In this document: positions 4,954-63,386 of the stretch, one piece after another
How the letters are laid out: each line of letters begins with the position of its first letter
Position numbering within the stretch: position 1 is the stretch's first letter
Source of the DNA: Coptis chinensis
Taxonomy: Eukaryota > Streptophyta > Magnoliopsida > Ranunculales > Ranunculaceae
DNA: 64,000 nucleotides
Assembly: GCA_015680905.1 (NCBI GenBank)
Contig: CM027380.1
Coordinates: 37,130,001-37,194,000 of the forward strand
Direction: 5' to 3'
The notes under the pieces: model-generated
What the model was told of the DNA's origin: nothing
The model's database searches: none
What the model saw: only the letters and a program-made list of their open reading frames with translations
Translations under genes and position numbers: made by a program

Positions 4954-6450
4954 TGATAATAGCCCAAAACTGTAGTTTTAACCCTCAGAATAGCCATACT
5001 TTTAGACCAATTATGTGAGTAATAATTAAGAGTTAATACCGATTCACGTGTTTTTATGCATTCCAGGCTTCAAAGTCCATTATGTGCAGAAATGTGCCAC
5101 TTTAGCGAGATAAAGGAGCAAAGGTCGGTTGCTAAGGAGTCCTGTGATTAAAGGCCAAGATTCAAGAAGACAAAGCCTTTCTAAAGCCCGGTTAAAGCTG
5201 AAAAGTCGACGCTTGGGCGTAAAAAAGACACAAAGTCAGTGAGAAACTTCCGAAGGCCGTATCTTTGGACTCAGACCTCGGAATTGGGCCTACCTTATGT
5301 CAAAACGACTGGCTCGGAAAGAGCTTTCCAATGGTCTAAGCCTTGACCTAATCCAAGGAGCAGAAATGGACTAAAAGTCTGTTGAAGCCAACTGCAGCTG
5401 AAGAGGCCCTTTTAGACTGAAAGAATTGGGTTTTGGATCTGAAAGTATAAAAACAAGAGCTTGACTCTTTGTTAATGGTAGATAGTTAGACCTAGATTAG
5501 TTAGCCTCCATTAATTAGTTGTAGAATTTCAATTAGTTAATTAATTAGTTTTTCATATCTTGTTTTAGATCTAGTTTCATGTTTAATTAATTACTTTAGA
5601 ACAAAGTAGATTATTAATTTAGTATTTGAATCATTGTTTTATTATTCATTAGATTAATAAAATAGTGTTCTTGGTAATCTAGTTTCATTTTCCATTTACT
5701 TATTTAGTTAAATTCTTAGATTCAATTATTTGTCATTATTAGTTTAATTCAATTATTGCATGAGTAGTTTTGAATTGAGTTTAAACAAGTAAAGTTCAAA
5801 TCTTTATATCATGTCTTGTTTGAATTCCATTGGGAATGATTGCGTAATGATTCTCGGCTAAACCTCCATTAGAGGGGGTTGAGAAGCCTTGATGAAAGCT
5901 TGATTCCGATTATCATAGAGTCGTCATAATTTCCTTTCCACTGTAGAAACGATTAGTTCACCATGAGAATGGGTGTAATCGTTCACATGCTAGTTATGAA
6001 TTGGTAGAAATGTCATGTGTAATTAGGGATTAGGAGTAACCAGATTGTTCTGCGAAGCAGTTCAATTCGGATTATGACGATTCGTCGTTAGTAGGATTTA
6101 GTCGAGTTAAGGTGGAATCAATCCCCCTCTAACTCCTTATCATAGAATCGACGTAGCATTCCCATAGTTGTTCTAATAGTCGACTAGTTGCATCTTGTGG
6201 GTAGTTGCATCGTAGTCTAGTTGCCATTTCGTAAATCTCTCATTAGACTAAAGAGTTAAGATTACTTATACGTAGAGAACACAGCATGAGGAAGGACTAG
6301 GAGTGGAACGAATCTTCTACTCCACTATATCTCATAGGATTGAGAGTAGAAATCTTTGATAAATATAGGCACGTATTAAGTTTTAGTTTACTTACGTTTT
6401 GAGTTTCATCATTCATTTCGTAGGTAAACTATCATTTTTATGTTTTATCA
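4954..6450 (+). repeat. 3' LTR of element A (about 1.5 kb)
   Basis: The LTR starts TGATAATAGCCC directly after the polypurine tract and ends TTTTATCA, with a TATAAAAAC box at about 5446. It aligns with the LTRs at 17166, 25188 and 50595. Relative to those it lacks about 50 bases just before the TATA box, between two short TTTTGG repeats, as expected for slippage. Confidence 0.85.
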
Positions 6451-17165: not shown

Positions 17166-18654
17166 TAATAAGAGCCCAAAACTGTAGTTTTAACCCCTTA
17201 ATAATCATACTTTTAGACCAATTATGTGAATAATAAGTAAGAGTTAATACTGATTACGTGTTTTTATGCATTTCAGGCTTCAAAGTCTATTATGTGCAGA
17301 AATATGCCACTTTAGCGAGATAAAGGAGCAATGGTTGGTTGCTAAGGAGTTCTGTGATTAAAGGCCAAGATTCAAGAAGACAAAGCCTTTCTAAAGCCCG
17401 TCCAAAGCTGAAAAGTCAAAGTCAACGTGGGCAGAAATAGCACACAAAGTCAGCGGAACTTCCGAAGACCATATCTTTTGACTCAGACCTCAGAATTGGG
17501 CCTACCTTATGTCAAAACGACCGGCTCGGAAAGAGATTTCCAATGGTCTAAGACTTGACCCAATCAGAGGAGCAGAACTGGACGAAACATCTGTCGAAGC
17601 CAACTACAGCTGAAGAGCCCATTTTGGACTAAAGAAATTAAGTTTTGGGCCTAATTCTCTGGCCCAAAACATGGCTCCAAGCCCATGCATGATTTTTGGA
17701 TCTAAAAGTATAAAAACAAAAGCTTGACTCTTTGTTAATGGTAGATAGTTAGACCTAGATTAGAATTAGATTAGTTAGCCTCCATTAATGAGTTTTAGAA
17801 CTTAGTTTTAGAATTTCATTTCTTGTTTAGATTAATTTCTTGAATCATTAAATATCATTCATTAGATAAATAAAATAGTTATTATTCTTGTCATTTCGAT
17901 TTTTGTTATTTCAATCTATTATATCTAGTTTTAATTATTGTTGGTTACTATTTCTTAGTTGTTAATTAGATTTTAATTATTGTTTAATTTAGATTAGTAA
18001 ATTTCGAATCTTGATATTATGTTTAGTTTAGATTCATATGGAAATGATTGCGGAATGATTCTCGGCTAAACCTCCATTAGAGGGGGTTGAGAAGCCTTGA
18101 TGAAAGCTTGATTCCGATTATCGTAGAGTCGTCGTAATTTCTATTCCACTCTAGAAATGATTAATTCGCCATGAGAATGGGTTTAATCGCTCACATGCTA
18201 GTTATGAATTGGTAGAAATGTCATGTGTAATTAGGGATTAGGAAGAACCAATTGTTCTCAAGGTGAGCGATTCAATTTGGATTACTTAACGATTAAATCG
18301 TTAGTGAGTTAAGTTGAGTTAAGGTGGAATCAATCCCCCCTAATTCCTTATTATAGAATCAACGTAGTATTTCCGTAGTTGAATCAATTATAGTTTGTAT
18401 CTTGTGGGTAGTTGCATCGTAGTATATATAATTCCCCCTCGTAAAACTCTCATTAGACTTAAGACCGATTAGTTAACTATGAAATCATTCCATGCTAGAG
18501 AACTAGGAGTGGAACGAATTTGTTACTCCACTCTATTTCGATAGAATTGAGAGTAGAAATATTGATAAATATAGACTCGTATTAAGTTTTAGTTTACTTA
18601 CGTTTTGAGTTTCATCGTTCATTTCGTAGGTAAACTATCATTTATCATTTATCA
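17166..18654 (+). repeat. 5' LTR of element B
   Basis: The LTR starts TAATAAGAGCCC (TG changed to TA at the first dinucleotide) and ends TTTATCA. A TATAAAAAC box lies at about 17709. It is followed two bases later by the primer-binding site. Confidence 0.9.
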
Positions 18655-18656
18655 AA

Positions 18657-25187: not shown

Positions 25188-26672
25188 TGATAAGAGCCCA
25201 AAACTGTAGTTTTAACCCCTTAATAATCATACTTTTAGACCAATTATGTGAATAATAAGTAAGAGTTAATACTGATTACATGTTTTTATGCATTTCAGGC
25301 TTCAAAGTCCATTATGTGCAGAAATGTGCCACTTTAGCGAGATAAAGGAGCAATGGTTGGTTGCTAAGGAGTTCTGTGATTAAAGGCCAAGTTTCAAGAA
25401 GAGAAAGCCTTTCTAAAGCCCGATCAAAGCTGAAAAGTCAAAGTCAACGCGGGCAGAAACAGCACACAAAGTCAGCAGAACTTCCGAAGACCATATCTTT
25501 GGACTCAGACCTCGGAATTGGGCCTACCTTATGTCAAAACGACCGGCTCGGAAAGAGCTTTCCAATGGTCTAAGCTTTGACCTAATCAGAGGAGTAAAAG
25601 TGGACGAAACATCTGTCAAAGCCAACTGCAGCTGAAGAGCCCATTTTAGACTAAAGAAATTGGGTTTTGGGCCTGATTCTCTAGCCCAAAATGTGGCTCC
25701 AAGCCCATGCACGATTTTTGGATCTGAAAGTATAAAAACAAAAGCTTGACTCTTTGTTAATGGTAGATAGTTAGACCTAGATTAGAATTAGATTAGTTAG
25801 CCTCCATTAATGAGTTTTAGAACTTAGTTTTAGAATTTCATTTCTTGTTTAGATTAATTTCTTGAATCATTGAATATCATTCATTAGATAAATAAAATAG
25901 TTATTATTCTTGTCATTTCGATTTTTGTTATTTCAATCTATTAGATCTAGTTTTAATTATTGTTGGTTACCATTTCTTAGTTGTTAATTAGATTTTAATT
26001 ATTGTTTAATTTAGATTAGTAAATTTCGAATCTTGATATTATGTTTAGTTTAGATTCATATGGAAATGATTGCGGAATGATTCTCGGATAAACCTCCATT
26101 AGAGGGGGTTGAGAAGCCTTGATGAAAGCTTGATTCCGATTATCGTAGAGTCGTCGTAATTTCTATTCCATTCTAGAAACGATTAATTCGCCATGAGAAT
26201 GGGTTTAATCATTGACATGCTAGTTATGAATTGGTAGAAATGTCATGTGTAATTAGGGATTAGGAAGAACCAATTGTTCAAGGTGAGCGCTCATTCGATT
26301 ACTTCTGACGATTATCGTCGTTAGTGAGTTAGGTTGAGTTAAGGTGGAATCAATCCCCCCTAATTCCTTATTATATAATCAACGTAGTATTTCCGTAGTT
26401 GAATCAATTATAGTTTGTATCTTGTGGATAGTTGCATCGTAGTATAATTCCCCCTCGCAAAACTCTCATTAGACTTAAGACCGATTAGTTAACTATGAAA
26501 TCATTCCATGCTAGAGAACTAGGAGTAGAACGAATTTGTTACTCCACTCTATTTCGATAGAATTGAGAGTAGAAATATTGATAAATATAGACTCGTACCT
26601 AAGTTTTAGTTTATTTACGTTTTGAGTTTCATCGTTCATTTCGTAGGTAAACTATCATTTTATCATTTATCA
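25188..26672 (+). repeat. 3' LTR of element B
   Basis: The LTR begins TGATAAGAGCCC and ends CATTTATCA, with a TATA box at about 25731. It is followed by the AGCTC target duplication. Confidence 0.9.
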
Positions 26673-27191
26673 AGCTCCCTCTTAGTGCCAAAAGAAGCCT
26701 TATTAACGCTTATTATGAAGACTCAAGATGCTATGGAAAAGTGCTAAAAAAGTCAAAATCAAACTACAAGTCAAAGTTAAAGTCAAAGGTCAAGGACTCA
26801 AAACTAAAGTACTTAAAGTCATGTCCTTAACTCAGAAGACTAGAGATGGATGACCTTGTCATAAAAGAAGGCTTGCTCAAGAAGATATGAAAAAGCAAAA
26901 GCAAAAGCATAAAGGGAAAATATAATGCAACATAGTGAGGTGTCTTGATTGTAGAGGGAGAGGGCAAATCAATCTTTGGCAAAAGGTGTAATATAAAAGC
27001 CCAAAAGTAGGAGGAGAGAAGGCACCTATACTTAATTTAGTGTCATGCAGGAGTAGTGCAATCTTTATTTTCAAGTCATTTACATTCTAGTCTTTTTCAT
27101 TTAATTTTTGTTCTTCATTCTTCAATCAAAGTTATTTCAATACAAGTTAATATTCAAGTTGTCATTTAATCTTCAACACAAGTTTGTTCAT
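26673..27191 (+). repeat. TGATCAGC-family LTR, second part
   Basis: Resumes the LTR interrupted at 17165. It aligns with the 14600-15050 part of the LTR at 14486 and is cut by another LTR start at 27192. Confidence 0.65.
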
Positions 27192-28800: not shown

Positions 28801-29530
28801 GCTATGAACAATGAGTGTGCATACCTTGTGTTGATGTATGAACAATGATTGTTTATACCTCAAATATGTGAACATACCTCATACAACATATTGATATATG
28901 AACAATGATTATTCATAGCTCATGTTGAGGTATAAACAATTATTGTTCATACTCCGATCCAATAGGTGTTCTACTCATCATATATTATGTTGAGATATGA
29001 ATATTGATTTTTCATACTCTAACTAGATATGAACAATTATTGTTCATAGTTCATGTTGATGTATGAACAATGATTATTCATACCCTAAATAGATATGAAC
29101 AATGATTGTTCATATACTCCAATGAGTGTTATTATTGATCAAACATTATGTTGAGGTATAAACATTGATTGTCCATACCCCAAATAGGTATAAACAATGA
29201 TTGTTCATACTCTAATAAGTGTTCTTATTGATCATACATTATGTTGAGGTATGAACATTGATTGTTCATACCCTAAATAGGTATGAACAGTAATTGTTCT
29301 TATGAACAATAATTGTTCATAGCTTATGTTGAGGTATAAACAGTGATTGTTCATACTCCAATAGGTGTTTTTACTGATCATACATTATGCTGAGGTATGA
29401 ACAGTGATTGTTCAACCCAAATAGATATAAAGAATCAAATGAACAATGAGTGTTCATAGTTCATGTTAAGGTATGAACAGTGATTGTTCATACCCCAAAT
29501 AGATATAAACAATCATTGTTTATACTATAT
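28801..29530. repeat. Array of imperfect palindromes (GAACAATGATTGTTC core)
   Basis: About twenty variants of the self-complementary core GAACAATGATTGTTC recur, usually within TATGAACAATGATTGTTCATA. A longer unit of about 93 bases is also repeated, for example the ACATTATGTTGAGG block at about 29143, 29236 and 29382. The array is flanked by an 11-base inverted pair, AAATGACCCGG at about 28746 and CCGGGTCATTT at about 29536. Confidence 0.85.
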
Positions 29531-29936: not shown

Positions 29937-30026
29937 TTCCACAAACCCTCACGTCTCTCCTCTTAATTCTTGAACCTCATTTCATTTTCACAACCTCATC
30001 ATATCTTCTTCTTCCACTATAACAAA

Positions 30027-30660
30027 ATGAATCTCCTCCTTTCTCTCTTCTGTAGAAGAAAAAGATATAAAAGAAAGTCCAAACAAAAGCGTCAAAGGGT
30101 GGTCTGCTCTTTGATCACTCTCCCAGCAGAAATCGTCTTGGACATATTCTCCAGACTAGCCTTAAAATCTGTAATGCGTTGCAAATGCGTCTGCAAAACA
30201 TGGCATTGCATCGTCGACAACAACCCGACTTACGCAAAACCCAAAGTTTCTGTCGAGAGAAACAAGTATCTTATAGAAAATGCGGGGTGCGGCAGCGAGG
30301 TAATAAAGTCACTTACATTGCCCCCATATTTTAGTTCTTTAGATATTGTTGATTCTTGTAATGGGTCGTTGTGCTTAACTGAATTTTATTATAGTGGTGT
30401 TATAACTATGTATGTTTGCAATCCATTTACAAGGGAAAGTACAAAACTTCCTTCTACTAATACCATTCCTTTTAAGGTTTGGTTTTGGTTATGATCCTAT
30501 ACGCGTTGAGTATAAGGTGGTACGATTAGTTTTTCATTCTTTAAAAACTTGCATTGCTGATTGTAAAGTAGAAGCTGAGGTTTTTACACTTGGTTCGACT
30601 TCTTGGAAAAGGATTGGGGAGTCCCCATTTAGTCCTAATGATCCGGATTGTTCTGTGTAT
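30027..30660 (+). pseudogene. F-box protein gene, 5' part, broken by a copia insertion
   Basis: The first in-frame ATG is at 30027. A basic N-terminus is followed by an F-box at about residues 30-70 (LPAEIVLDIFSRL, then CKCVCKTWHCIV), the part that would bind a SKP1-type adaptor in an SCF ubiquitin ligase. An F-box-associated domain then begins (DSCNGSLCL, VCNPFTRES). A frame change at about 30478-30490 separates this from GFGYDPIRVEYKVVRL in the next frame. The open sequence ends at 30660, where a copia LTR begins. The rest of the gene is at 36316-36797. The frameshift may be an older lesion or a base-call error. The substrate is unknown. Confidence 0.85.
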
Positions 30661-31277
30661 TGTTGGAATCTCTTGTGTATTTCTAAATACTAGTGTGTGT
30701 GTGCAAAGTGGAGGAGATGAACAAATGGTATTCTCGCCACTTTAGTGCATAGTAGATAGTCCCACATTGGTTATCCACCACATCGGGTAGGGTTCGGGCT
30801 TGGGCTTGGGCTTACTGTTGTGGGTAGTGGTTAGACCAATAGCCTAAACTTGTTTTGCCTTTTTCTTGAGCAGCAAGTTTCAGTGTTCTATTAGGAGTTG
30901 GTCTCTCTTTCTCCTAACCTCTATAAATAGGACTGTGAGTCCATAGAGAGAATAGACTTGATCAGAAACTCAACTCAGAGAAACAGAAACTCAAACCAGT
31001 TCTTTTCTTCTTCTCTTCTTCCGGCCGCCGAGAGAGTTATATTGTCGTTCTAGAGGGTAGTCTGTTCTAGTGCAAAGTCAGGCTGCTGTTAACCATTGAA
31101 TCCTGTGAGGAAGACGCCACTGTTGCCTTTCTGCACCATTGGAAGGGGCGAAATCTTTCCTTAAGGACAGCCTAATCCGCGCCTTGGTTATTCCCAGTTA
31201 TTGTTGTCCTTGTTTCTTTATTGCTACTGTTCCTTCTGTTCTACTTTAGTTGCTGTGTTCATACAACTATTCTAACA
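30661..31277 (+). repeat. 5' LTR of the copia element
   Basis: 617 bases with a CTATAAATAG box at about 30922. The first 209 bases are identical to the 3' LTR; the remainder differs in clusters at CAG/CTG and CG sites. Confidence 0.95.
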
Positions 31278-33499
31278 ATCTTAAGGAAAGATTTTTGTAG
31301 TAGAACAAAGGAGAGTGCTTTAATACGACAATCAAAAGATAAGTCTTTTACTTTGAGTTATTGTTTGTGTTATTGGGTTATGAGTTTAGAAATTTTCTAA
31401 TAATTTCGTTTTTGGTAGGGAAACCAATTAAAGATTGAATATTTATTGATCTTTTGTGGTTTATTAAACCCTATATGGTTGTAGACTTTTCTCCTACGTT
31501 TGTGGGAGTCAAATATGAGATTTCTATCAAGAAAAACATCAAAGTTCGTCTTTTTGACAGCTGCGCCACTTTCTTCACGAAACTGCTATAACTTTCAGCT
31601 CAGAGCTCGGTTTTGCAATCCACTTCTTGTGTTGGATAGCTGATTCAAAGAGCTTTCCAGTGGTATAAGGCTTGATACCCAATTCTTCATGAGCTGGTTC
31701 AGAATTACAGTTCTTTTGAACTGTTTTTTCTAGAAGGAGGAAAATATGGTAATCCGGTTTTTCAATCGGTTAGGTATCGTATTCTTTCACTCTTTGCAAT
31801 TCTTTTGGTTTAATTATATGGTGATATTCTTGCCTTGAGTTGCATGCTAGTTTTTCTTAGGAAGGAAATCCCTAAGCTTAAACTTCTTTAATAACCTAGT
31901 CAACAAATTATACGTGTATATCACTGAGGAATTAATTGGTTTAACTAGAAGTAGTTTGATATTAATTTTCTTTGTACATATGTAGATGTATGTAGATGGT
32001 CTAAGAGAGACCTTAAGATAGTTAATATCAACCACACTCAAATCTTGGATAGTAATTATAATGTATTCAATGCATAATTACTTATCTTTATTGAGTGAAC
32101 GTGTTGTTAGACGATGGTTATAATTGTACTGTTGTGAAAATACATGTTAGATGAAGTAACTTGTAGCTTATATCTAATATAGCATATGTTAAAGTTGTGT
32201 AGCATGCTAGTTTTGGATATTAATCATCGTGGATTTACTTTAAACTTGATAATAGTTTATTGGTAAATTTTTCTAGTTGAAGACATTAATGGATTAAGCC
32301 ATTAGATGTTGTGGTAGTACTTGAGGTCTTGTTGATAGGGTATTCTATCTTACTTGAGCTCATATAAAAAGAGGAGGTGGAGTCCTCAGTTGTTTTGCAT
32401 ATTTAGTGGCTAGATTTGCTTAAATATCGTATACTTTTTGTTGTGAGGGGTACAGTTAAAGTTTACTTTTCCTTAACCTATGATATGATATTTACCATGT
32501 TTGGCATGAATGCATTATTTAACATTGACATGAAGTTTAACCATGTCATATATTATTAAGTAATGAGCATCGTTGTCTACGAGAGGAAACAATATAGGAA
32601 ACAATCAATATCCTCTTAAACCTAATTTAGTCAAGGAGATGTAAAGTAATGGTTTGTCTTCTTAGACAATATCCTCCAGTGACTATTTTAGACAAGGAGA
32701 TGTAACGCTTGTAGATTGTCTTATTAGGCATTATCCTCCTATGACTATTGATAAATAGCCAAGGTGATGTACAAGTGCGTGGATTGTCTCCCTATGACAG
32801 TTGGAATGTTGAATGATGAAAAGAAGGATGATAATGATATTATCTTGGGTAAAACCCTTTTCATCTAAATTCTTTAAAATTCATTTGAATCACTTGTGGA
32901 TTTCCTTTCATATAGATAGCATGAACATAATATGACTATGTTTAATATGATCTAGAATCATAGACTTGAGTAAAGTATATTCTTGTCATAAGAGTGCATT
33001 TTATTGTTGTTGTTTCTTTTTTTAGTGTTTGTAGCAAAGATAATGTGTTTTGCATGTAAGTTTGATTAGGTTGAGTAACCATTGAACTGTGGGGGTAGTG
33101 ACCCATATGCATGACACTGTTTTACCATAGTTCATCTCACAAGATAATTGGAAAGACACTTGAACTACAAAGTATGGAAAGGTCTTGGGCCTATCCAAAA
33201 ATGTTTCAAAATGTGGGGGGTGTCTTGCCAAGGCTATTGTGAATGAATCTAAAAGAAATATATATATATATTTTTTTTGAGACCTAGAATTATCAAGTAG
33301 ATGTTCATTGGTGAAACTCATAATAGTGATATTTGTTTTCAGTTGTCATGAGTGATAACAATTTTGTAGATACCACACTATTATTGAATGTCTTATATGC
33401 TAATTTTATTTGAGGTTGTGCTTTCTGAAATTGGCATAGAGTGGTTGAATGTTCATAATGAACTACATAAGATAATCCCATTATTTCTGCACAAGAAAT
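31278..33499 (+). other. Copia internal region without recognisable coding sequence
   Basis: Gag, protease and integrase would be expected here, but no open frame longer than about 100 codons and no family motif is seen. Repeated phrases of the type ATTGTCTTATTAGGCA with CCTCC near 32650-32800 suggest local duplication. Confidence 0.5.
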
Positions 33500-34215
33500 T
33501 TGGAAGACTATCAATGAGTATTTCCACCATTAACGGTGATGATGTTTATATGTTTCTTAAGGAAGATTCATTAACCTATAAGGAAGTTGTCTGTCTATGA
33601 GAAGTGTCTTTTTTGAAGGATACAACTCCTCTAAACCGACTCTTGATTTATTGGGGATCTATAGGTTGAATTGGATCTTCAAGAGAAAACTAAAACGTGA
33701 TAGTTGTATTGCAAAATACAATGTTAATAATAATAGCCAAGGGGTTTCAATCGAGAGACAAAATTTATACTATTTTGAAACCTTGCTCATATAACTAGAA
33801 TTTCTTCTACGAGAATTCTAAAGACTCTAGTTGAGTAGTTGTCTTGGAACTACAATACCAAGTAGTACCGTGATGAAATGGGAAGGTATACAATTTAGTT
33901 AAATCTTTGTATGAGTTGATTCAAGCCTATAAATGGCATGAGCAATTCAACAACATATTAGTGTCATATGGATGTCAAAGTACCGTTGTTGATAAAAAAA
34001 AAAATGTACTTTCTTTAGAGCAAAGCAAGACATATGTGTTAATCTCTCTTTGTTTAGATGATTTAATATCATGAGTGCTAGCATTGAGAATGTGTATGAG
34101 ACAGAGAAAATCCTATTTGAAACACGCCATAAACCGTCATTGAAAATGATATTTTATTATGTTGTTAAACTCATTTCTCAGAATCGCTATATTCAGGTTG
34201 TCAAGATGTTGACGT
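33500..34215 (+). pseudogene. Copia reverse transcriptase remnant
   Basis: In shifting frames the region shows WIFKRKLKRD followed by IAKYN (about 33671-33725), a YFET block at about 33770, then a KSLYEL...QA block near 33900 and a VISLCLDDL block near 34045 in place of the usual YVDD motif. The centre of the domain is missing between the YFET and KSLYEL blocks. This is the copia order of the RT domain. Confidence 0.7.
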
Positions 34216-34569
34216 TTGAATATGGTTGAAGGCCACACACCTTAAACCGGACCGGCGGATGGTATAGGGGAATTTCGGCACTACTGAGAATTGAATGACC
34301 GTGAATATAGGAATTAAAACTTATGTTGGTCTCATTATATTGTTATAGCACTTAGTAGAAATATTTTTCATTGAAAAGTATGGGTATTATGATAGTAAGC
34401 ATGTGTTAACACATTTTGTGGCAAATATCCATCTTATGAAAAATAATCTCCTTGTGTTTTCTCATACTAAATATGTCAATATCATTGGTAGCCAATTGTA
34501 CTTGATGGATAATGTATGTGAGACATGACATTGCCTACATTAATGGCATCTTGGTGATAACCCATTGTG

Positions 34570-35110
34570 TCCTTATAAGGAACTTTGATGTATATTGTCG
34601 ATTATCCAAGTACTATAGCAGAGCCATTGATTATGGATGATATTTAGTAGATTTCCATCATTGTTAGAAGGGTAATATGTTATAAACCGGATCCAAAGAA
34701 TGTTTATGTGTTTACCTTTAGTGGAAATTGAGTGTCTTGGATATCATCCAAGCTAATCGCCTTAGAAAAGGCATGTGATGATGCCGGTGGGTTAGCAACC
34801 TCTTGGCAAATCTTCCCATTGGCTCTAAACAATGTGTATATGCTTTGCAACCGTCTCATTGCAATAGCTAAGACATGTTATCTTATGTGCAATGGGAAAA
34901 GAATACATGTAAGTTGAGATATAACTTAATCAAGCAAAATGCTAGAGATTATGTTAGGTTGGACTTAGTTTGGCCACATGTCTAACTCACCACTTCTTTG
35001 GAGGCAAGTGGTTATACGTCGAGGGGATGGGACTTTTGCTTTAGATAGAGGGCTTACACCGACGCAACCCCACCTATCGATTGGAGATCCCATGAAGTAG
35101 GTTCAAAGGA
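34570..35110 (+). pseudogene. Copia RNase H and polyprotein C-terminal remnant
   Basis: VYVFTFSG and VSWISSKLIALEKA (34700-34790) match the SGYVFT...VSWKSSKQ...STMESE-type copia RNase H. A YLMCNGKRIHVS stretch (about 34880-34915) matches the YNGKSRHI motif. At about 35045-35100 the usual C-terminal end (TDATPPIDWRSHE) is readable. Several stops are present. Confidence 0.7.
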
Positions 35111-35674
35111 AAAACAAGTCACCTCGTTGCTCGGGTATGCTATTGTCTTTCTTTGAGGCGTCCCACCCTATGACTAGATAGCATTATTGTATACTTTGTA
35201 TAACTTGAATAGCAATGAGAAAAGGATGAGTTATTTTACTCTTAATGGAATCCATAGTCCATTATTTTTATGAGATAGTGTATTTTAACTGCTATGTACA
35301 CTTGATGGATATCCACCTACGTGAATGTAGATTTGGGTCGGTTCTTATGAGTATTCGTGCAAGTACTCTAGAGCATTCACATAACACGAAATGTATGAAA
35401 AAGCCAAAAAGCATAACACCGCTGAAAACGGTATATATAATGAAAGAGCAATGTGGGTACATGTCCTCTATTTTACTACAAGGGAATGTTGGTTCAAAGA
35501 TTTTTAATCCACCACTTTCACGTATTATAAGACATGTTACCCTATGACCGGTTCAAGCCCAGTAAAGCACCAAGATCTTTATGCATTATTTTTTCGATTC
35601 TCTCGGCATTTCGTTAACTCATTTCTTTTGTAATATCCTATTCCAAAATAGTGGGAGACTATTAGTATTTTGAA

Positions 35675-35686
35675 ATAGTGGGGGAT
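35675..35686 (+). promoter_or_regulatory. Polypurine tract of the copia element
   Basis: ATAGTGGGGGAT directly precedes the 3' LTR. A weaker copy (ATAGTGGGAGAC) lies about 30 bases upstream, and the two are separated by a short duplicated stretch. Confidence 0.8.
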
Positions 35687-36315
35687 TGTTGGAATCTCTT
35701 GTGTATTTCTAAATACTAGTGTGTGTGTGCAAAGTGGAGGAGATGAACAAATGGTATTCTCGCCACTTTAGTGCATAGTAGATAGTCCCACATTGGTTAT
35801 CCACCACATCGGGTAGGGTTCGGGCTTGGGCTTGGGCTTACTGTTGTGGGTAGTGGTTAGACCAATAGCCTAAACTTGTTTTGCCTTTTTCTTGAAAGCA
35901 AAGAAGTTTCAAAGGTTCTATTAGGAGTTGGTCTCTCTTTCTCCTAACCTCTATAAATAGGACCAGAGTCCATAGAGAGAATAGACTTGATCGAAACTCA
36001 ACTCGTGAGAAACGAAACTCAAACCAGTTCTTTTCTTCTTCTTCTTTCTCCTTTGTCGGCCGCCCGAGAGAGTTATATTCTTGCATTCTAGAGGGTAGTC
36101 CGTTCTAGTGCAAAGTCGTCAACATTAACCATTGAATCCTGTGGAGGAAGACGCATGCTGCTTGCCTTTACGCACCATTGGAAGGGCGAAATCTTTCCTT
36201 AAGGACTGACTAATCCGCCTTGGTTATTCCCGCTATTGCATCCCTTTGTTTCTTTATTGATCGTTCTTCATACGTTTCTACTTTAGTTCTTTGTGTTCAT
36301 ACAACTATTCTAACA
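35687..36315 (+). repeat. 3' LTR of the copia element
   Basis: 629 bases, same ends as the 5' LTR, with a CTATAAATAG box at about 35951. Confidence 0.95.
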
Positions 36316-36797
36316 TGTATTTGGATGGAACTATATATTGGATTGCTAACTCTACTGATGATTCAGATAAAATTGGTATTGGTTCTTTCCGCTTTGGGGA
36401 TGAGAAGATGGAGTTTGATCCATTAATACCAGAGTTGGTTCCATTGTGGGATGATTTCATTGAGATTGGTGTTTTGGGACAATGTCTAGCTGTGGTTGAT
36501 TATTCTTCTCATGAATTTGCTGATGTATGGATACGTTGTGGGGAAACTGCGAGTTGGCTACATGCGTTTGCGTTACAAATATTTGATGTTGTGTCGTTGA
36601 GCCTGTTGTACTTCTTGAATAATGGTGAGTTTCTGTTCTCAATTAACTATCGTGATGTGGTTTGTTGTGACCCTACTGGTTATGAAGATGGTAGGGAACT
36701 TGGGATTCATGGCATGTCAAAGTCAGTTCAACCATTTGTTCACATAGGCACGCTTGTTTCGCCTATAATCGGTAATGTCGTTCAGTTGGAGAGGTAA
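36316..36797 (+). pseudogene. F-box protein gene, 3' part
   Basis: After the copia element the F-box-associated domain resumes in the frame that ended at 30660 (LDGTIYWIAN, FGDEKMEFDPLIPE, then VQPFVHIGTLVSP) and runs about 160 codons without a stop to 36795-36797. The last codons overlap a good splice donor (GAGAG|GTAAGAG), so a further exon is possible. The good condition of this half suggests that the insertion is not old. Confidence 0.85.
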
Positions 36798-50594: not shown

Positions 50595-52084
50595 TGATAA
50601 GAGCCCAAAACTGTAGTTTTAACCCTTTAACAGTCATACTTTTAGACCAATTATGTGAGTAATAATTAAGAGTTAATACTGATTACGTATTTTTATGCAT
50701 TTCAGGCTTCAAAGTCCATTATGTGCAGAAATGTGCCATTTTAGCGAGATAAAGGAGCAAAGGTCGGTTACTAAGGAGTTCCGTGATTAAAGGCCAAGTT
50801 TCGAGAAGACAAAGCATTTCTAAAAGCCGGTCAAAAGTGAAAAAGTCGACGGGCGAAACGAAGACACAAAAGTCGTGAGAACTTCCGAAGGACATATCTT
50901 TGGACTCAAACCTCGGAATGGGGCCTACCTTATGTCAAAACGACCGTCTCGGAAAGATCTTTCCAATGGTCTAATCAGAGGAGCAGAAGTAGATGGAAAG
51001 TCTGTTGAAACCAACTGCAGCTGAAGAGGCCTTTTTGGACTGAAAGAATTGGGTTTTGGGCCTGATTCTCTGGCCCAAAACATGGCTCCAAGCCCATGCA
51101 CGATTTTTGGATCTGAATGTATAAAAACAAAAGCTTAGCTCTTTGTTAATGGTAGATAGTTAGACCTAGAAATAGATTATATTAGTAGCCTCCATTAATG
51201 AATTCTAGATCTAGTTTTTCATGTAGATTAATTAAGTTTAGTTCCATTTCAATTATTGTATTAGATTAAACCTTTGAATCTTGTTCTTCATTTTGATTAG
51301 ATCAATAAAGTAGTATTTTTATCAATTTCGATTTTGTCATTTCCATTCCTAGATCTAATTTCAATTCCTGTCTTTATTTCATTTGAGTCATTAAATTAGA
51401 TTTCATTATTGTTTAATTAAGTAAATTTCAATTCTTTATATCATGTTTAGTTTAAATGTAATCGGAAATGATTGCGTAATGATTCTCGGCTAAACCTCCA
51501 TTAGAGGGGGTTGAGAAGCCTTGATGAAAACTTGATTCCGAATATCGTAGAATCGTCGTAATTTCCTTTCCACTCTAGAAACGATTAGTTCACCATGAGA
51601 ATGGGTTTAATCGTTCACATGCTAGTTATGAATTGGTAGGAATGCCATGTGTAATTAGGGATTAGGAAGAACCAATTGTTCTGCGAAGCAGTTCAATTCG
51701 GATTACGACGATTCATCGTTAATAGGATTAAGTCGAGTTAAGGTGGAATTAATCCCCCTCTAACTCCTTATCATAGAATCAACGTAGCATTCCCTTAGTT
51801 ATTCCCATCGTCGACTAGTTGCATTTAGGTGGGTAGTTGCATCATAGTCTAGTTGCCTTTTTAAGTAAATCTCTCATTAGACTTTAAGTTTAGAGTACTT
51901 ACACTTGAGAACATAGCATCTTGGGAAGGACTAAAGAGTGGAACGAATCACTCTACTCCACTATATCTCATAGACTTGAGAGTAGAATCTTTGATAAATA
52001 TAGGCACTTAAGATAGTTTTAGTTTACTTACGCTTGATTTCATCGCTCATTTAGGTGAGTAGACTAATTATTTTACTTTTATCA
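50595..52084 (+). repeat. 5' LTR of element D
   Basis: TGATAAGAGCCC at the start and TTTATCA at the end. A TATAAAAAC box lies at about 51120. Confidence 0.9.
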
Positions 52085-54615: not shown

Positions 54616-55842
54616 ATGGAATTGTTAAGTACAAGGACCCCGGTCGCCCTACTATATACAATGCACCTTAGGAGATTCCTATCGACGACGTTATTAGACT
54701 TGGGGGCTAGTGTAAACTTACTCCCGTTTTATTTGTATAGACAAATAGGTCTAGACGAGATGCAACCCACTAGAATGACGTTGCAATTAGCTGATCGGTC
54801 TATTAAGAATCCTAAGGGTGTCGTCGAAAATGTTATGGTAAAAATTCAGGATTTTTACTATCCGGCCGATTTTGTCATCCTCGACACAGAAGTCGTTAAC
54901 GACTCTGTCCCGATCATCTTAGGGCGTCCTTTTCTGCCAACTGCCAATGCACTCATTAATTGCCGTGATGGTTCAATGTCCATGTCTTTTGGCCATCTTT
55001 CTGTTGAAGTCAATGTTTTTAAAACAAAGACACAGTTACCCGATTCGTCAATGGATGGAGAGGTTAGCATGATCGAGAGCGTTGCTCGAGATTATTTCAA
55101 CAACACGTTATCTGATAATCATATGCCCAAATTTCTTTCCTTTGGAAGTTCAGACTCCAACATTTTCATCCCTACACTAGTCGATACACATATTACGGAT
55201 GAGGATGAGATAGATGACTTTCTCAAAGATGTAGAGGACTATCATAGTAACGAGGATATGACCAATCTAGATGAGCAATTCGATGAGTTTCTTCGAGCAA
55301 GTGATGAATCACCCTATCAAGAACTACTTTACACAACATCCACCTCGACTCCCCTCCTTCCACCCTTTCAAAGGAATCTCGAGTTTGCACTCGATCCTTT
55401 TGTTTCTCCTGTGCTCCATAATTTTTTAAATCCACCTAGTAAACAAATACTTCAGAAGGACAAACCATTTGACACCTTCATTTTCAGACTTGAGACAGTC
55501 CCTACACACACCATGAATGAGTTTTGTGCTAAAACCACATCCTCATTGTTTACATGCTGTCCTTCTACAACTTATCCATATCCACCATATTCTCCACAAC
55601 CATTCACTTTTCCACACTTATTTACTAGAACACTCACTCATTCAAAAATGAAAAAGAAAGTGCATGTTAGGTTACGTAATAGGGTTATCCGACTTCACTA
55701 TCATTTCACTAGGTTGGGTCATAGGAAATCTTGTTGCTTGATTGTGTTTGGATATGTTTTCTGTGATATTTATTTATGGGATGATCCACAATTATTTCGG
55801 TTGTTGATATATGATAAACTGCATGTTCATACTTATGTTTAG
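54616..55842 (+). CDS. Retropepsin with unrecognised C-terminal tail, element D
   Basis: This is an open frame of 408 codons, probably the 3' part of a gag-protease polyprotein, so the ATG at 54616 may not be the native start. The catalytic motif LLDLGASVNLLP places the Asp at residue 28; the flap region follows and IILGRPFL lies at 100-107, the standard retropepsin order. After the usual SFGHL...VEVNVFK segment comes an acidic stretch (DEDEIDDFLKDVEDY), a proline/phenylalanine-rich stretch, and a basic C-terminus with FGYVFCDIYLWDD (about 376-388) and YDKLHVHTYV at the end. In autonomous relatives reverse transcriptase would follow; here the ORF stops and non-coding DNA begins. The tail is shared with element B and the copy ending at 60331. 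Confidence 0.75.
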   Translation: MELLSTRTPVALLYTMHLRRFLSTTLLDLGASVNLLPFYLYRQIGLDEMQPTRMTLQLADRSIKNPKGVVENVMVKIQDFYYPADFVILDTEVVNDSVPIILGRPFLPTANALINCRDGSMSMSFGHLSVEVNVFKTKTQLPDSSMDGEVSMIESVARDYFNNTLSDNHMPKFLSFGSSDSNIFIPTLVDTHITDEDEIDDFLKDVEDYHSNEDMTNLDEQFDEFLRASDESPYQELLYTTSTSTPLLPPFQRNLEFALDPFVSPVLHNFLNPPSKQILQKDKPFDTFIFRLETVPTHTMNEFCAKTTSSLFTCCPSTTYPYPPYSPQPFTFPHLFTRTLTHSKMKKKVHVRLRNRVIRLHYHFTRLGHRKSCCLIVFGYVFCDIYLWDDPQLFRLLIYDKLHVHTYV

Positions 55843-56100
55843 ACAAGTCTCGAGTATCTGACTATAAACGACTCAACTTTTGTGTTTGGTGCATTTCCTT
55901 TCATTTCCATATATTGGTGAGTGCACCATTAAGGTAATCGGGCCCTCTCTATGGAGTGTGTGGCTATAAGTACCGGAACCTAAGTCCACGTTTAAACATA
56001 ATTCACGTTTTCCACTCTTGCATGTTTTCTCGGATTTTTGAGTCATGTTTCTCTATGGGGTGAATTATGTCCTTCTTGTTTATTGTTTTCTTTTTAAAAT

Positions 56101-56181
<81 letters not shown>

Positions 56182-56959
56182 GAATAAGCATAGTAACCTA
56201 GGAAGTCTCGGAAATCTGACTTAAAAGACTCAACTTTAAAACAAATTTTCTAAGCTTCGTTGTAAAAATTTGTTTGGGGGTGGGGTCTTCGTGTTTCCGT
56301 ACTAAATATTTATGTCCCATTAGAGTTGCTTAGGCCGTTTTATTGTATTATGATTCGGGTTGACATAATCCATGAATTTAGAGTTCAATTGTTCGCATAA
56401 TGTACGTCATGCACGCACTTCGAGGCATTTTCTACTATCTTATATGTCATCCAGGGTCGGAATAGAGTGTTTTATGGATCATTGGATTGGAAATTCTCTT
56501 CTGATCATTTCCATATCTCATTCGCAAAAATCGGACCGGTAACGAAGCGGCAATTTTGATTTGAAGTTTCAAAAAAATCGAAAAAATCACAAATTTCGAT
56601 TTTGGGCTTGGGCCCAACTCAACTTACATCGACAGTAGCGACCGCTTTACCTTTTAGCAGCACTTTCGCGATCTTCTTCTCCATTCCGCCATTAATGCCA
56701 AGCTCCAAAACCTAAAAAAAAACAAAATCAAAATAAAAAGAAAACGAGAATTAACCCACACCAAAATCAAATCCCAACCCAAATCGACTCCAAACACCAC
56801 CGACCACCACTCCCACCGATTTACATCACTAAAACCACCGAAAATTCAAAATTTTGTGTGCTGCCACCACCACTCCACCACCACCACTGTTGCTTCAACC
56901 GGTCGATTAAAATCCCACCACTACATCACATTTAAACCCCACTACATTCCAAACTTCCA
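55843..56959 (+). other. Spacer of element D, unit 1
   Basis: Contains the (TA)n microsatellite (56105-56178) and the tract TTTGTTTGGGGGTGGGG at about 56270-56286. A 650-base non-coding block leads to the X start. No gene is seen. Confidence 0.6.
56105..56178. repeat. (TA)n microsatellite, unit 1
   Basis: About 36 TA units. The homologous site in unit 2 (60602-60650) has about 24. Confidence 0.95.
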
Positions 56960-58107
56960 ATGGCTCAACAACAATTTTGTTTGCGAGCAAGCTTTTACCA
57001 TGAGACCACTTCGCGCCCGTTTTACGGTGACGAGATGATCGATCGAGAGATCGGAATAGCTTGTGGTACTCGACTGAAGCCTATTACCACGGGACTTAGT
57101 CCGACGGTTCTATGATACTGAGGGAGTTGGAAGGGACTAGGATTTTGTTGTGGTAGCGAAGAGGTGGAAGGAAGTGACGACTCGGTTGTTGGTCGAGATT
57201 CTAGGCATTCCGCCTAGAATCCATCCGATGTCACCCTGCAGAGTCCCAAAGATAATGGGGTAGAGCCATTGATGCACGAGACGCTTATTGGAGGGGACTA
57301 CAATGCAAGATCGCATTGTGTTCGACAGTTTCCCTTAGGATCAACCGGTTACCTCTGACCCGATGGATTGGTCTAACGCCCGAGGGAAGGGAAAGTCAGT
57401 GATATCGGCCTCGAATCGGCCTCTATATCTTATGGATACTCCAGAGGCGGAAGTATGACTTCTGCATCTTAGAGTTTTTATCGAGCATGATTAGGGGAGT
57501 AGGGAGGTCATTGCCCCTCTCCCCGTGTTGATAACAAAGATCATGCTCAAGTTGAGAGTAGCTCGGTAACCGATCGGACATACATCACTCTCCACCGTAA
57601 CCCTCGTGATCTATAAGGAGTGTGTCCAACGGGTTTGGAGATTGGCCGAGGATAGAGAAGAAGAAGAAGAGGATGGAGGAGCCGAGAATGCCGAGGAGGC
57701 GGGGACATCGATGCCTCCGGATGAGGAGGACTTGACCCGGTTTGACGCTGGATGCCTTGGAGAGGTCTTTGGATGATGCGAACGCATGGCGTGATTCATC
57801 GAGGCATGCGTTAAACTTAACACTATCTGTGAAGACCTCCGGACTCGACAGAACAACGATGCATCACAACTTCGAGCTCCGCACCCGAGAGAGGACGCAG
57901 AGGTGGGAAATGATGAGCGCCCGATTCGGGGCGAGATGTCGACCACGATTCCCACCTCACGGGGACTCTCCTTCTAAGGACACACCATCCAGCACAAAGC
58001 GTCGTCGCCCGAAGGGCGAATAATGGTGTCTTGAGGAGCTTCGGGGCTCGAGAGCTCCCGAGCATGTTCCCTTCGCCACCGATTCGGAGTAGCTAGGGAT
58101 AGTATAG
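56960..58107 (+). pseudogene. Extra ORF X of element D, unit 1, frameshifted
   Basis: Starts ATGGCTCAACAACA. Homologous blocks to 237-1381 are readable in several frames: an LWYST-like block near 57060, ILGIP near 57200, an acidic stretch at about 57655-57740, and a final open part at 57742-58023. Differences from the other two copies cluster at CAG/CTG/CG sites. Confidence 0.6.
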
Positions 58108-58897
58108 TTTGATGTTTTATGTTTTATTTGTAGTTTCATTACCATTTTATTTTTATGTAAGTTTATTTCCGTAAGTTGAATTTTGTAGTGAAATGTACTC
58201 CGCATGAATTATTTTTAATATAATGGGTCATTTTCATTATGCGTGGTTGTTTAATATTGACCCCACCTTCCCAACTTGTTTGGGGGTGGTTTTATCTATT
58301 CCAGCATGATTTTTATATAACCCTCGTGTTAGAATTTATTGTGGAGTCAAGGTGAAAATATGGCTGTTTAGGCATATATATGAATAAATATCATGGTAGG
58401 ATGAAATCTAGATTAAATAGGTACATTCTATCATAAAATCAACCTAAAAGATACTGGGTTTGAATTAGAATCAAGAAAATGAGTTGTTTCCGTTTTCGGG
58501 TTTGGAAATTTTAGGATTTCCGAAAACTGCCGTAATTAGTTTTGGCAACTTCCCGATCCATTTTAGCAACTTTAAACCTATATAAACTTGATACAATCTA
58601 TCCTCACACTACACACCTAAACTCCATCACTCACCTTTCACTCCCCCGATTCCCTCGTTTTGCTCATTTTTCGAAGTTTCTCGAACTCCGAAAGCTCAGC
58701 TTTTACAGAGCGCACTCGCTCTGTATATTTTTTCTAAGTTTTTGTCGGCCATCCGGCCAAGAAGATGAGCGACCAGCCAAACACCGAAATTTCAATTTCT
58801 TCGAGGCCAAGGCGGCGACTTCCGTGGACCAGAAAATTTCCAGGTTTTTAGCGTAGTATCTGGATCATTCGCAGCTATTCCAAAGCGTAATTTTGAG
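58108..58897 (+). promoter_or_regulatory. Spacer with G-rich tract and TATA box before ORF Y, unit 1
   Basis: TTGTTTGGGGGTGGT at about 58276-58290 and CTATATAAAC at about 58578-58587, about 310 bases before the Y start. Same order as in A, B and unit 2. Confidence 0.45.
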
Positions 58898-60331
58898 ATG
58901 ACATCTCCAACATTGATACCGGAACAGTCTTTCGAAGATTTGTTCCAAAGCACTACTTATGGTGCTTGGTTTCGCGAAGCGATCACATTCGTTGGTTGGG
59001 AGCCGCTTTTGGTAAGACCGGATGCACTTTATTCTCCAACACTAGCATCTTATTTTTATGATAACTGCATTTTCTTTGAAAGACCAGATGGAGAACAAAT
59101 GTCCTTTGGATCCTTTGGAATTGTTAAGTACAAGGACCCTGGTCGTCCTACTGTACAATGCACCTTAGGAGATTCCTATACGACGACCGCGTTATTAGAC
59201 TTGGGGGCTAGTGTAAACTTACTCCCGTTTTATTTGTATAGACAAATAGGTCTAGACGAGATGCAACCCACTAAAATGACGTTGCAATTAGCTGATTGGT
59301 CTATTAAGTATCCTAAGGGTGTCGCCGAAAATGTTCGGTAAAAATTCAGGATTTTTACTATCCGCTGATTTTGTCATCCTCGACCACGTAAGTCGCTAAT
59401 GACTCTGTCCATCATCTTAGGGCGACCTTTTCTCGCAACCGCCAATCGCTCATTAATTGCCGTGATGGTTCAATGTCCATGTCCTTTGGCCATCTTTACT
59501 TTGAAGTCAATGTTTTTAAAACAAAGACCGCGCTTACCCGATTCACAATGGATGGAGAGGTTAGCATGATCGAGGCGTTGCTTTCGAGATTATTTCAACA
59601 ACACGTTCTCGATAATCATATGCCCAAATTTCTTTCCTTTGGAAGTTCAGACTCCAACATTTCCATCCCTACACTAGTCGATACACATATTACGGATGAG
59701 GATGAGATAGATGACTTTCTCAAAGATGTAGAGGACTATCATAGTAATGAGGATATGACCAATCTAGATGAGCAATTCGATGAGTTTCTTCGAGAAGGTG
59801 ATGAATCACCCTATCAAGAACTACTTTGCACAACATCCACCTCGATTCCCTCCTCCCACCCTTTCAAAGGAATCCCGAAGTTTGCACTCGACCCTTTTGT
59901 TTCTCCCGTGCTCCATAATTTTTAAATCCACCTAGTAAACAACTACTTCGAAGGACAAACCATTTGACACCTTCATTTTCAGAATTGAGACGACCCACAC
60001 ACATGAATGAGTTTTGTGCTAAAACCACATCCTCATTGTTTACGGCTGTCTTTCTACAACTTATCCATATCCACCATATTCTCCACAACCATTCACTTTT
60101 CCACACTTATTTACTAGAACACCCACTCATTCAAAAATGAAAAATAAGGTGCATGATAGGTTACATAATAGGGTTATCCGACTTCGCTTTCATTTCACTA
60201 GGTTGAGTCATAGGGAATCTTGGTGCTTGATTGTGTTTGGATATGTTTTCTGTGATATTTATTTATGGAATGATCCACAATTATTTCGGTTCTTGATATA
60301 TGATAAACTGCATGTTCATACATACGTCTAG
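58898..60331 (+). pseudogene. ORF Y start fused in frame to retropepsin (duplication junction)
   Basis: The first 68 codons are ORF Y (IPEQSFEDLFQS, YSPTLASYFYDN, RPDGEQ). At about 59100 the sequence changes, in the same open frame, into the protease module (LLDLGASVNLLP with the catalytic Asp intact), which stays open to 59341. The remainder of the protease and its tail continues with frame changes (59473-59925 open, then 60137-60331 with FGYVFCDIYLW). At the junction TCCTTTGGA occurs twice in a row, a filler-like sequence absent from both parents. Confidence 0.75.
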
Positions 60332-60589
60332 ATAAAGTCTCGAGTATCTGACTATAAACGACTCAACTTTTGTGTTTGGTGCATTTCCTTTCATTTTCAT
60401 ATATTGGTGAGTGCACCATTAAGATAACCGGGCCCTCCCTATGGAGTGTGTGGCTGTAAGTACCGGAACCTAAGTCCACGTTTAAACATAATTCATGTTT
60501 TTCACTCTTGCATGTTTTCTCAGATTTTTGAGTCATGTTTCTCTATGGGGTGAATTATGTCCTTCTTGTTTATTGTTTTCTTTTTAAAA

Positions 60590-60654
<65 letters not shown>

Positions 60655-61436
60655 GAATAAGCATAGTAACCTAGGAAGTCTCGGGAATCTGACTTTAAAA
60701 GACCCACTGCTAAAAACAAATTTTCTAAGCTTCGTTGTAAAAATTTGTTTGAGGGTGGGGTGTTTGTGTTTCCATACTAAATATTTATGTCCCATTAGAG
60801 TTGCTTAGGCCGTTTTATTGTATTACGATTCGGGTTGACATAATCCATGAATTTAGAGTTCAATTGTTCGCATAACGTACGTCATGCACGCACTTCGAGG
60901 CATTTTCCACTATCTTATATGTCATCCACGGTCGGAATAGAGTGTTTTATAGATCATTGGATTGGAAATTCTCTCCTGATTATTTCCATATCTCATTCGC
61001 AAAAATCGAACCGGTAACGAAGCGGCAATTTTGATTTGAAGTTTCGCGAAAAATCAGAAAAAAAAAATCACAAATTTCGATTTTGGGCTTGGGCCCAACC
61101 CGCGCCCACCGAAAGCGCGACCGCGCCCTTACCTTCACCTTCCCTTCATCCGTTTTTTTTTACACACCGCCATTAAAAAGCTTCAAACCCTAAAAAAATA
61201 AATAAAAAAATTAAAAAGAAAAACAATTAACCCACGCCCACAATCCAACTCTAACTCCAAATCTTCTCTTAAACCATACCCACACCACCTCCACCAATTC
61301 AAACCACCAAAAACCACCGAAAATTAAAATTCAAAGCTGCCGCCACCACACCACCACCACCATCGTTTTTGATCAGTGAGTCGTTCCTCATTACTCCTAC
61401 ACCTTCTATAAACACCAAATCATATTCAAACTTCCA
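60332..61436 (+). other. Spacer of element D, unit 2
   Basis: Near-copy of 55843-56959, with a (TA)n tract at 60602-60650 and TTTGTTTGAGGGTGGGG at about 60744-60760. No gene is seen. Confidence 0.6.
60602..60650. repeat. (TA)n microsatellite, unit 2
   Basis: About 24 TA units after a short A-run, at the position homologous to 56105. Confidence 0.95.
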
Positions 61437-62592
61437 ATGGCTCAACAACGCCGAATTTTACCGGAGCAAGCTTTTACCGCAGACCACTTCACGCCGTTTT
61501 ACGGTGATTTAGATGATCGGTCGAGATCGAGGTAGCTTGTGGTACTTGACTGAAGCCTATTACCACGAGGACTTAGTCCGACGCGGTTCTACGATCTGAG
61601 GGAGTTGGAAGGGGACGAGGATTTTTGTAGTTAGGCGAAGAGGCGAAGGAAGTGACGATCGGTTGTTGGTGAGATTCTAGGCATTCCGCCTAGAATCCAT
61701 CTGAATGTCACCTGCAGGAGTCCCAACATAATGGGGTAGAGCCATTGATGCACGAGACAGTTATTGGAGGCGACTACAATGGGAGATCGCATTGTGTTCG
61801 ACGGACTTCCCCTTAGACCAACCAGCTAGCTACTGACCGAAATGGATTGGTGGGAACATCCGGGGAAGGGGAAGGTCACGACATCGGCCCGAACTACCTC
61901 CACATCTTATGGATACTCGGGGGAGCGAAGTATGACTTCTACATCTTAGAGTTTTTACTGAGCATGATTAGGGGGAGTAGGGAAGTCTGTTGCCCTCTCC
62001 CTGTGTTGATAACAAAGATCATCTTTGAAGTTGAGAAGCTTCTCAGCGATCGATCGGACATACATCGGCCTCCACCGTAACCCTCGTGATCTATAAGGAG
62101 TGTGTCCAACGGGTTTGGAGATTGGCTGAGGATAGAGAAGAAGAAGAAGGGATGGTGGAGCTGAGAATGAAGAGGAGGTCGGGGAAAATCAGGATGCCTC
62201 GGAGGATGAGGAGGACTTGACGTGTTTTGACGAGGATGCCTTGGAGAGGTCTTTGGTCGATCTGACGCATGGCTGTGATCCATCGCGGGCATGCATTAAA
62301 CCAACACTATCTATGAAGACCTCCGGACTCGGCAGGTAACGATGCATCATAACTTCAAGCTCCGTACCCGAGAGGATGAGAGGTGGGAACGGATGAGGCG
62401 AGCTAAAGCTCGGCGCCCGATTCGGACGAGATCGACACGATTCCCGTCACGGGGACTCTCCATCGAGGATACACCCTCGAGACACGGCCCGTCGCCCGAA
62501 AAGGCGAATGGTGCTGGTCCATCAGAGCTCGGGAAGCGATCTCGGAGGCGTGTGCCTTCCGCCACCAGTTCGGTAGCTAGGGGATAGTATAG
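61437..62592 (+). pseudogene. Extra ORF X of element D, unit 2, frameshifted
   Basis: ATGGCTCAACAACGCCG start, LPEQAF motif, then frame changes. An open part at 61847-62080 shows HILWILGGAKYDFYILEFLL, the hydrophobic middle of ORF X, and an acidic stretch follows at about 62140-62225. Third copy of X in the window. Confidence 0.6.
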
Positions 62593-63386
62593 TTTGATGT
62601 TTTATGTTTTATTTGTAGTTTCATTACCGCCGTTTATTTTTATGTAAGTTTATTTCCGTAAGTTGAATTTTGTAGTGAAATGTACTCGCATGAATTATTT
62701 TTAATATAATGGGTTATTTTCATTATCGTGGTTGTTTAATATTGACCCCACCTTCCCAACTTGTTTGGGGGTGGTTTTATCTATTCCAAAGATGATTTTT
62801 ATATAAGTCTCGTGTTAGAATTTATTTATTGAGTCAAGGTGAAAATATAGCTGTTTAGGCATATATATGAATAAGTATCATGGTAGGATGAAATCTAGAT
62901 TAAATAGGTACATTCTATCATAAAATCAACCTAAAAGATACTGGGTTTGAATTAGAATCAAGAAAATGAGTTGTTTCCGTTTTCGGGTTTGGAAATTTTA
63001 GGATTTTCGGAAACTGCCGTAATTAGTTTTGGCAACTTCCCGATCCAATTTAGCAACTTTAAACCTATATAAACTTGATACAATCTATCCTCACAACTCA
63101 CACTACACCTAAACTCCATCACTCACCTTTCACTCCCGCGATTCCCTCGTTTCGCTCTCATTTTCCGAAGTTTACGAAACTCCGAAGCAGACTCGCAAGG
63201 CTGTATATTTTTCTGAGTTTTTGTCGAGGCGCCAAACCAAGCCGAAATAGCGCGACCCACGCCACGCAAACACTGGAAATTTCAATTTCTTCAGAAGGGC
63301 CACCCGACCCGGGACCGGGAAATTTCCAGTTTTTAAGATGCGTAGTATCCGGATCATTCGCAGCTATTCCAAAGCGTAATTTTGAG
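62593..63386 (+). promoter_or_regulatory. Spacer with G-rich tract and TATA box before ORF Y, unit 2
   Basis: TTGTTTGGGGGTGGT at 62761-62775 and CTATATAAAC at about 63065-63074, about 315 bases before the Y start. Confidence 0.45.

Follow-up and report, generated by a model that had tools for sequence, protein, structure and literature searches.

How can two sequences that are identical at birth come to differ by small insertions and deletions (indels) that lie mostly at CAG, CTG and CG? The question is raised by the two long terminal repeats (LTRs) of a copia-type element in a 64,000-nucleotide stretch of the Coptis chinensis genome (GenBank assembly GCA_015680905.1, contig CM027380.1, positions 37,130,001 to 37,194,000 of the forward strand), hereafter the window. 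The 5' LTR spans 30661-31277 (617 bases) and the 3' LTR 35687-36315 (629 bases), both on the forward strand, as are the other parts of the element, the ORF X copies and the Athila-like LTRs described below. Since a perfect TGTAT target site duplication flanks the element on the left (30656-30660) and on the right (36316-36320), the LTRs derive from one insertion event and, as the LTRs of one element start out identical, should have begun without differences.

The preliminary description of this locus had reported that the LTRs are identical over their first 209 bases and then differ in about twenty small clusters, nearly all at CAG, CTG or CG, and the alignment bears out both statements. Positions 30661-30869 are identical to 35687-35895, within an identical block of 211 bases that starts at 30659. 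Past base 209, where 30870-31277 is compared with 35896-36315, there are 23 difference clusters, namely 22 indel or complex changes and one single transition, and 18 of the 23 touch CAG, CTG, CCG, CGG or CG in one copy or the other. The 5' LTR holds 20 CAG/CTG sites, only one of which (a CTG; there is no CAG) falls in the identical stretch, together with three CG; of the 19 sites beyond it (bases 210-617), 16 are altered in the 3' LTR. The first 209 bases are thus identical largely because vulnerable sites are scarce there, and the sharp border at base 209 mostly reflects the point from which such sites become plentiful. The 5' LTR is the copy nearer to intact CAG/CTG states, while the 3' LTR carries more miscalls, and 14 of the 19 CAG/CTG sites scored in it have an indel or complex change; observed/expected ratios are 1.40 and 1.13 for CAG and CTG in the 5' LTR against 0.30 and 0.42 in the 3' LTR, and 0.39 against 0.65 for CG. 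Variants private to the two LTRs of this element occupy three columns only.

The same contexts are affected throughout the family. With the 5' LTR as query in the 935.6-Mb genome (116 contigs), from which all fetched copies came, a set of 49 LTR copies including the two of this element was assembled, in which 15 pairs come from single elements; loci L031 and L045 were excluded as duplicates of L032 and L023. Single substitutions were counted apart from indel or complex clusters. Across the 15 pairs there are 353 clusters, comprising 253 indel or complex changes, 78 single transitions and 22 single transversions. The 253 touch CAG/CTG in 127 cases against 43.6 expected under random placement, CCG/CGG in 50 against 18.4, and CG in 114 against 38.0; because a miscall can itself create a CG, the CAG/CTG count is the cleaner figure. 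Five control trinucleotide pairs stay at 1.01-1.25 times expectation (observed, with expected in parentheses: GAC/GTC 40 (32.1), CAA/TTG 68 (67.5), CTC/GAG 50 (46.2), CAC/GTG 47 (41.9), CAT/ATG 31 (30.2)). The vulnerable contexts are CG and CHG, unlike the CHH-type controls. When the 48 other copies are compared with the 5' LTR, the highest indel or complex rates among 32 trinucleotide pairs belong to CCG (0.47), CGA (0.33) and CAG (0.25); site 323 of the 5' LTR, which adjoins a run-length difference of the 5' LTR itself, was retained in this ranking and excluded from the tallies of wrong texts, twins and patchiness given below.

The internal region of the element (31278-35686) follows the same rule. 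It was searched at 34 loci, of which 16 gave a match of at least 400 bases and 15 a match over 4000, and a change was taken as private when carried by at most 3 of the 16 copies. Against these 16 other elements, the top five of the 32 trinucleotide pairs are CGC, CCG, CGA, CAG and ACG. Private indel or complex changes per 1000 sites amount to 46 at CAG/CTG (133 events), 26 at CCG/CGG (25), 19 at other CG (20) and 3.0 elsewhere (199). In the element of the window, 26 of 33 private indel or complex clusters touch CAG/CTG, CCG/CGG or CG, contexts that make up 306 of the 4406 internal-region columns. The counts by trinucleotide context, where a lack of enrichment at CHG/CG sites would have spoken against the preliminary description by its own criterion, return enrichment at CAG/CTG, CCG/CGG and CG, with controls near expectation in the LTR pairs.

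States that are real should agree between the twin LTRs of one element, apart from a small number of later changes. For the twin comparison, 3 of 19 CAG/CTG columns were dropped, as were all single-nucleotide polymorphism (SNP) columns that lay close to a motif, had under four minor states or offered under 12 clean pairs. At ordinary SNPs (11 columns, bases 24-559), twins are discordant in 6 of 158 comparisons against 57.2 expected if they were independent, and these six are confined to two columns. At CAG/CTG (16 columns), twins are discordant in 98 of 240 comparisons against 94.3 expected if independent. One site was also tallied genome-wide by exact patterns for its CG and CAG forms only, which were found at 139 and 108 places, respectively. 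On contigs C1-C5, for which both forms are fully listed, there are 36 pairs at the spacing of LTRs: 14 are CG/CG, 8 are CAG/CAG and 14 are mixed, whereas independence would give 17.5 of the last kind. The same one-base loss appears in one twin only in 10 of the 15 pairs, and most CAG/CTG sites show several different wrong texts. Wrong states are also patchy along the copies: with the count limited to 13 CAG/CTG sites spaced by 17 bases or more, 55 adjacent error pairs are observed where shuffling gives 27.7 and, over 2000 shuffles, a maximum of 40, while an earlier count that included sites 3-4 bases apart gave 104 against 48. The mean correlation of states is 0.31 at neighbouring sites and 0.10 at sites five or more apart.

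A yardstick outside mobile elements is provided by the 5S ribosomal RNA (rRNA) genes, which were located with RF00001; the 47 best matches of 23,962 candidates were scored and one more array stretch was added. After removal of seven short matches and of units cut by the end of a locus, the set holds 101 copies from 11 loci, most of which belong to the array at L057 and G000:C6:51339588-51519110. The best copies reach 113.9 bits. Ten of the 101 match the canonical 119 bases exactly and 12 match over bases 4-116, so that most of the copies examined depart, as assembled, from the canonical sequence. At least one indel or complex change touching CAG/CTG is carried by 81 copies, and the rates per 1000 sites are 177 at CAG/CTG (215 events), 57 at CCG/CGG (40), 48 at other CG (39) and 17 elsewhere (155). 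Since ten of the 11 loci are centred on best-scoring copies, the measured damage is, if anything, mild. TCAGA is the one CAG context that is letter-for-letter common to the 5S gene and the LTR, and it becomes TCGA in both (6 times in 5S, 13 in LTR twins) and TCGTGA in both (once and twice, respectively). Additionally, CAGCA becomes CAAAGA in seven 5S copies, and the same run separates the LTRs of the window near 30870, a match noticed by eye that is not in the automatic comparison.

The lack of inheritance of CAG/CTG states by twins, the near-independent split at the tallied site and the damage of 5S genes in the same contexts together strongly support error rather than mutation. The full explanation that we favor, with a probability of roughly 0.94, is that the clusters are consensus errors of an assembly built from native long reads, called by a model unaware of CHG methylation and corrected in patches. 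The reads would most likely be nanopore reads. The methylated cytosine of CAG/CTG, and of some CCG and CG, would be miscalled in a few repeatable ways, often into text containing CG, as if a basecaller that meets methylcytosine outside CG resolved it toward the contexts known to it. Such errors may persist in multi-copy silenced DNA, in which later correction would place reads only in patches, leaving one LTR right and its twin wrong. What the data show is the context, the lack of inheritance between twins, the patchiness and damage of a like kind in the 5S genes; the platform, the causal role of methylation and patchy correction as the source of the unevenness are parts of the explanation that we infer. 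Plants methylate silenced DNA at CHG and CG sites, and an excess of transitions is the usual mark of methylated cytosine; in the internal region, transitions per 1000 sites amount to 34 at CG, 19 at CAG/CTG, 19 at CCG/CGG and 5.9 elsewhere. The link to methylation, drawn from the CG and CHG contexts and from this transition excess at the same sites, is accordingly a probable one, and the suggestion of the preliminary description that indels at CHG and CG sites fit base-calling error finds its support, for the error itself, in the twin test and the 5S genes.

Several observations weigh against this explanation. The 15 pairs were picked by likeness to the 5' LTR, which inflates discordance; it is for this reason that one site was also tallied genome-wide, a less biased count. 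At that site, the CG form is the commoner one (139 against 108), so that the majority alone cannot tell which form is right, whereas the twin test and the 5S genes can. Changes are not confined to the motifs: 199 of 377 private indel or complex clusters of the internal region and 155 of 449 such changes in the 5S genes fall outside them. Texts that recur in one twin only are also found in controls: among 352 overlapping control windows, 63 such texts are shared by two or more elements and 28 by three or more, against 11 and 3, respectively, among 20 CAG/CTG windows. Only six change rules are common to the 5S genes (219 rules) and the LTR twins (214), and three of these contain a motif. Finally, the gain of CG is not fully specific, since CG is also gained with 10 of 15 CAA/TTG losses, counted in clusters where CAG/CTG is equal.

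Ordinary decay, that is, deamination of methylcytosine along with scattered indels in old silenced repeats, is present alongside, as transitions are enriched at CG and CAG/CTG and one Athila-like LTR pair of the window (17168/25190) has just this appearance. However, 253 of the 353 clusters in the copia LTRs are indel or complex rather than single substitutions. Moreover, deamination would remove CG, and the reverse is observed: of 120 clusters in which one twin has fewer CAG/CTG, 68 show a gain of CG in that twin and 2 a loss (69 and 2 of 126 when single transversions are included). Given this excess of indels and gain of CG, decay is insufficient for the copia LTRs, and we consider it very improbable as the account of their differences.

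An even smaller chance is given to the proposal that two genuine LTR subfamilies, with the CG and the CAG forms, were joined into mosaic LTR pairs by recombination or gene conversion. The run of 209 identical bases followed by divergence does resemble a breakpoint, and the CG form is common genome-wide. Nevertheless, ordinary SNPs on either side of base 209 stay with the twin (with the six discordant comparisons, in 2 of 11 columns, noted above), the several wrong texts per site do not combine into a single haplotype, and 5S rRNA genes are damaged in the same contexts; the twin test contradicts a mosaic origin, and the multiple texts and the patchiness do not fit it. Least credible, to the point of being negligible, is real mutation directed at methylated CHG and CG, for instance small indels left by faulty repair after plant DNA glycosylases have removed methylcytosine, because, even though the affected sites are CG and CHG and glycosylase repair of methylcytosine is established in plants, twins do not inherit the states and split almost at random on C1-C5, the same single-base loss would need to have originated separately in 10 of 15 elements, each time in one LTR, and 81 of 101 5S genes would have to be altered at CAG/CTG.

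Consensus error of this kind has consequences for dating. The Kimura two-parameter (K2P) distance between the LTRs of the window element falls about tenfold, from 0.032 over all aligned columns to 0.003 without the clusters that touch a motif; it also falls in the other 14 pairs, for instance from 0.039 to 0.005 in L015 and from 0.040 to 0.021 in L014. Because dropping motif clusters also removes real deaminations, the lower value is a floor. The warning in the preliminary description that dating from these LTRs would be wrong is upheld, and dating is unsafe here. Its further claim that many frameshifts are artefacts stands in part: 26 of the 33 private internal clusters lie at motifs, whereas the other seven lie outside them and the internal region is degraded across the family, so artefacts do not account for all breaks in the window. 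How old and how broken these mobile elements look is almost certainly due in part to artefacts of the assembly. LTR ages, frameshift counts, pseudogene calls and the CG/CHG composition of repeats, when derived from the assembly, would be biased, and surveys of 5S variants on it would mislead. Such errors can be detected by the twin-LTR test, which needs no reads. Methylated CHG sites seem to be where the miscalls fall; we tentatively suggest, as a possibility that we do not yet favor, that this finished assembly may therefore preserve CHG methylation, and the places where correction failed, in a crude but readable form, and that twin-LTR disagreement could serve as a read-free error meter for any plant assembly.

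Basecalling models have been trained mainly on other organisms, with other methylation patterns, and modification of plant DNA lowers the accuracy of nanopore reads from native DNA, according to PMC9749173, PMC7501810 and PMC9049114. These sources likewise name differences in modification as a likely cause and short-read correction as needed for the remaining base errors; there, overall accuracy is addressed, whereas the present measurements, made on a finished assembly, concern the contexts, the resulting texts and the non-inheritance between twins. Errors of nanopore reads have also been ascribed to methylation in bacterial typing (PMC12506013), which concerns bacteria and typing schemes rather than CHG in plant repeats. 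In the available portions of the literature, including PMC9749173, PMC8188678, PMC7501810 and PMC9049114, the statements on accuracy are general, and no CHG-specific measurement of consensus error in plant repeats was found.

Other repeats of the window show the pattern to differing degrees. The three copies of a region termed ORF X (open reading frame X; 2-1948, 56724-58672 and 61204-63164) carry the same motif-linked changes, as had been described from the sequence, with private indel or complex rates per 1000 sites of 102 at CAG/CTG, 71 at CCG/CGG, 67 at CG and 18 elsewhere. The corresponding claim for the Athila-like LTRs was overstated, since these differ mostly by ordinary decay. Alignment does place a miscall patch near 5205-5250 in the LTR part at 4956-5436 and near 50845-50885 in that at 50597-51065, as had been claimed; the LTR at 17168-18655 is a counter-example, as it differs from its partner at 25190-26673 mostly by scattered single substitutions (24 transitions and 7 transversions against 13 indel or complex changes, with CAG/CTG touched twice against 1.5 expected). 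Over the four copies, 5 of 16 private indel or complex changes in the left part of these LTRs touch CAG/CTG; the right part is devoid of CAG/CTG sites, and 4 of its 27 such changes touch CG. In a four-copy repeat (about 1444-1951 and its partners), none of 15 private indel or complex changes lies at CAG/CTG, for which it has just 12 columns. Among 12 repeat pairs of the window that were tested, the pattern is clear in 54617/59116 (CAG/CTG 41 against 19.8 expected) and 18998/53034 (18 against 7.9), and the remaining pairs show it less strongly or not at all, the lowest having 1 against 1.2. The stretch 54617-63596 consists of two direct copies of about 4.5 kb that are 87.5% alike, in which CAG/CTG stands at about half of expectation and CG at expectation, a composition that is possibly a footprint of miscalls.

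The element itself resembles the Ty1/copia type of LTR retrotransposon in its direct LTRs with TG...CA ends and its 5-base target site duplication. A weak match to RVT_2, the reverse transcriptase of the Ty1/copia type, marks a putative fragment at 33877-34074 and lies below the Pfam cut-off (PF07727, E 0.0023, 18 bits against 31.6). Integrase, which precedes reverse transcriptase in this type, gave no match in the six forward-strand pieces scanned, out of 14 listed open reading frames of at least 60 amino acids. The element differs from the type in that its degraded internal region is common to the copies and in that most of the differences between its LTRs do not belong to the element itself. 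The internal region lacks an open reading frame of 150 amino acids, yet 15 other elements are 93-95% alike to it over 4.3-4.4 kb, which is what one would expect if the family is non-autonomous and moved once its genes were already decayed. An Rfam scan of the window gave no match. The element is inserted inside an F-box gene, parts of which lie at 29967-30494 and 36316-36797 and match F-box-like (E 4.8e-11) and FBA_1 (E 1.1e-06). The reading frame of the FBA part continues across the empty site of the insertion, and one frame change, seen by eye, is located upstream, in the interval that separates the F-box part from the insertion. Positions 28803-29526 form an array of direct repeats that have diverged, with several self-matches that overlap one another at 75-79% identity.

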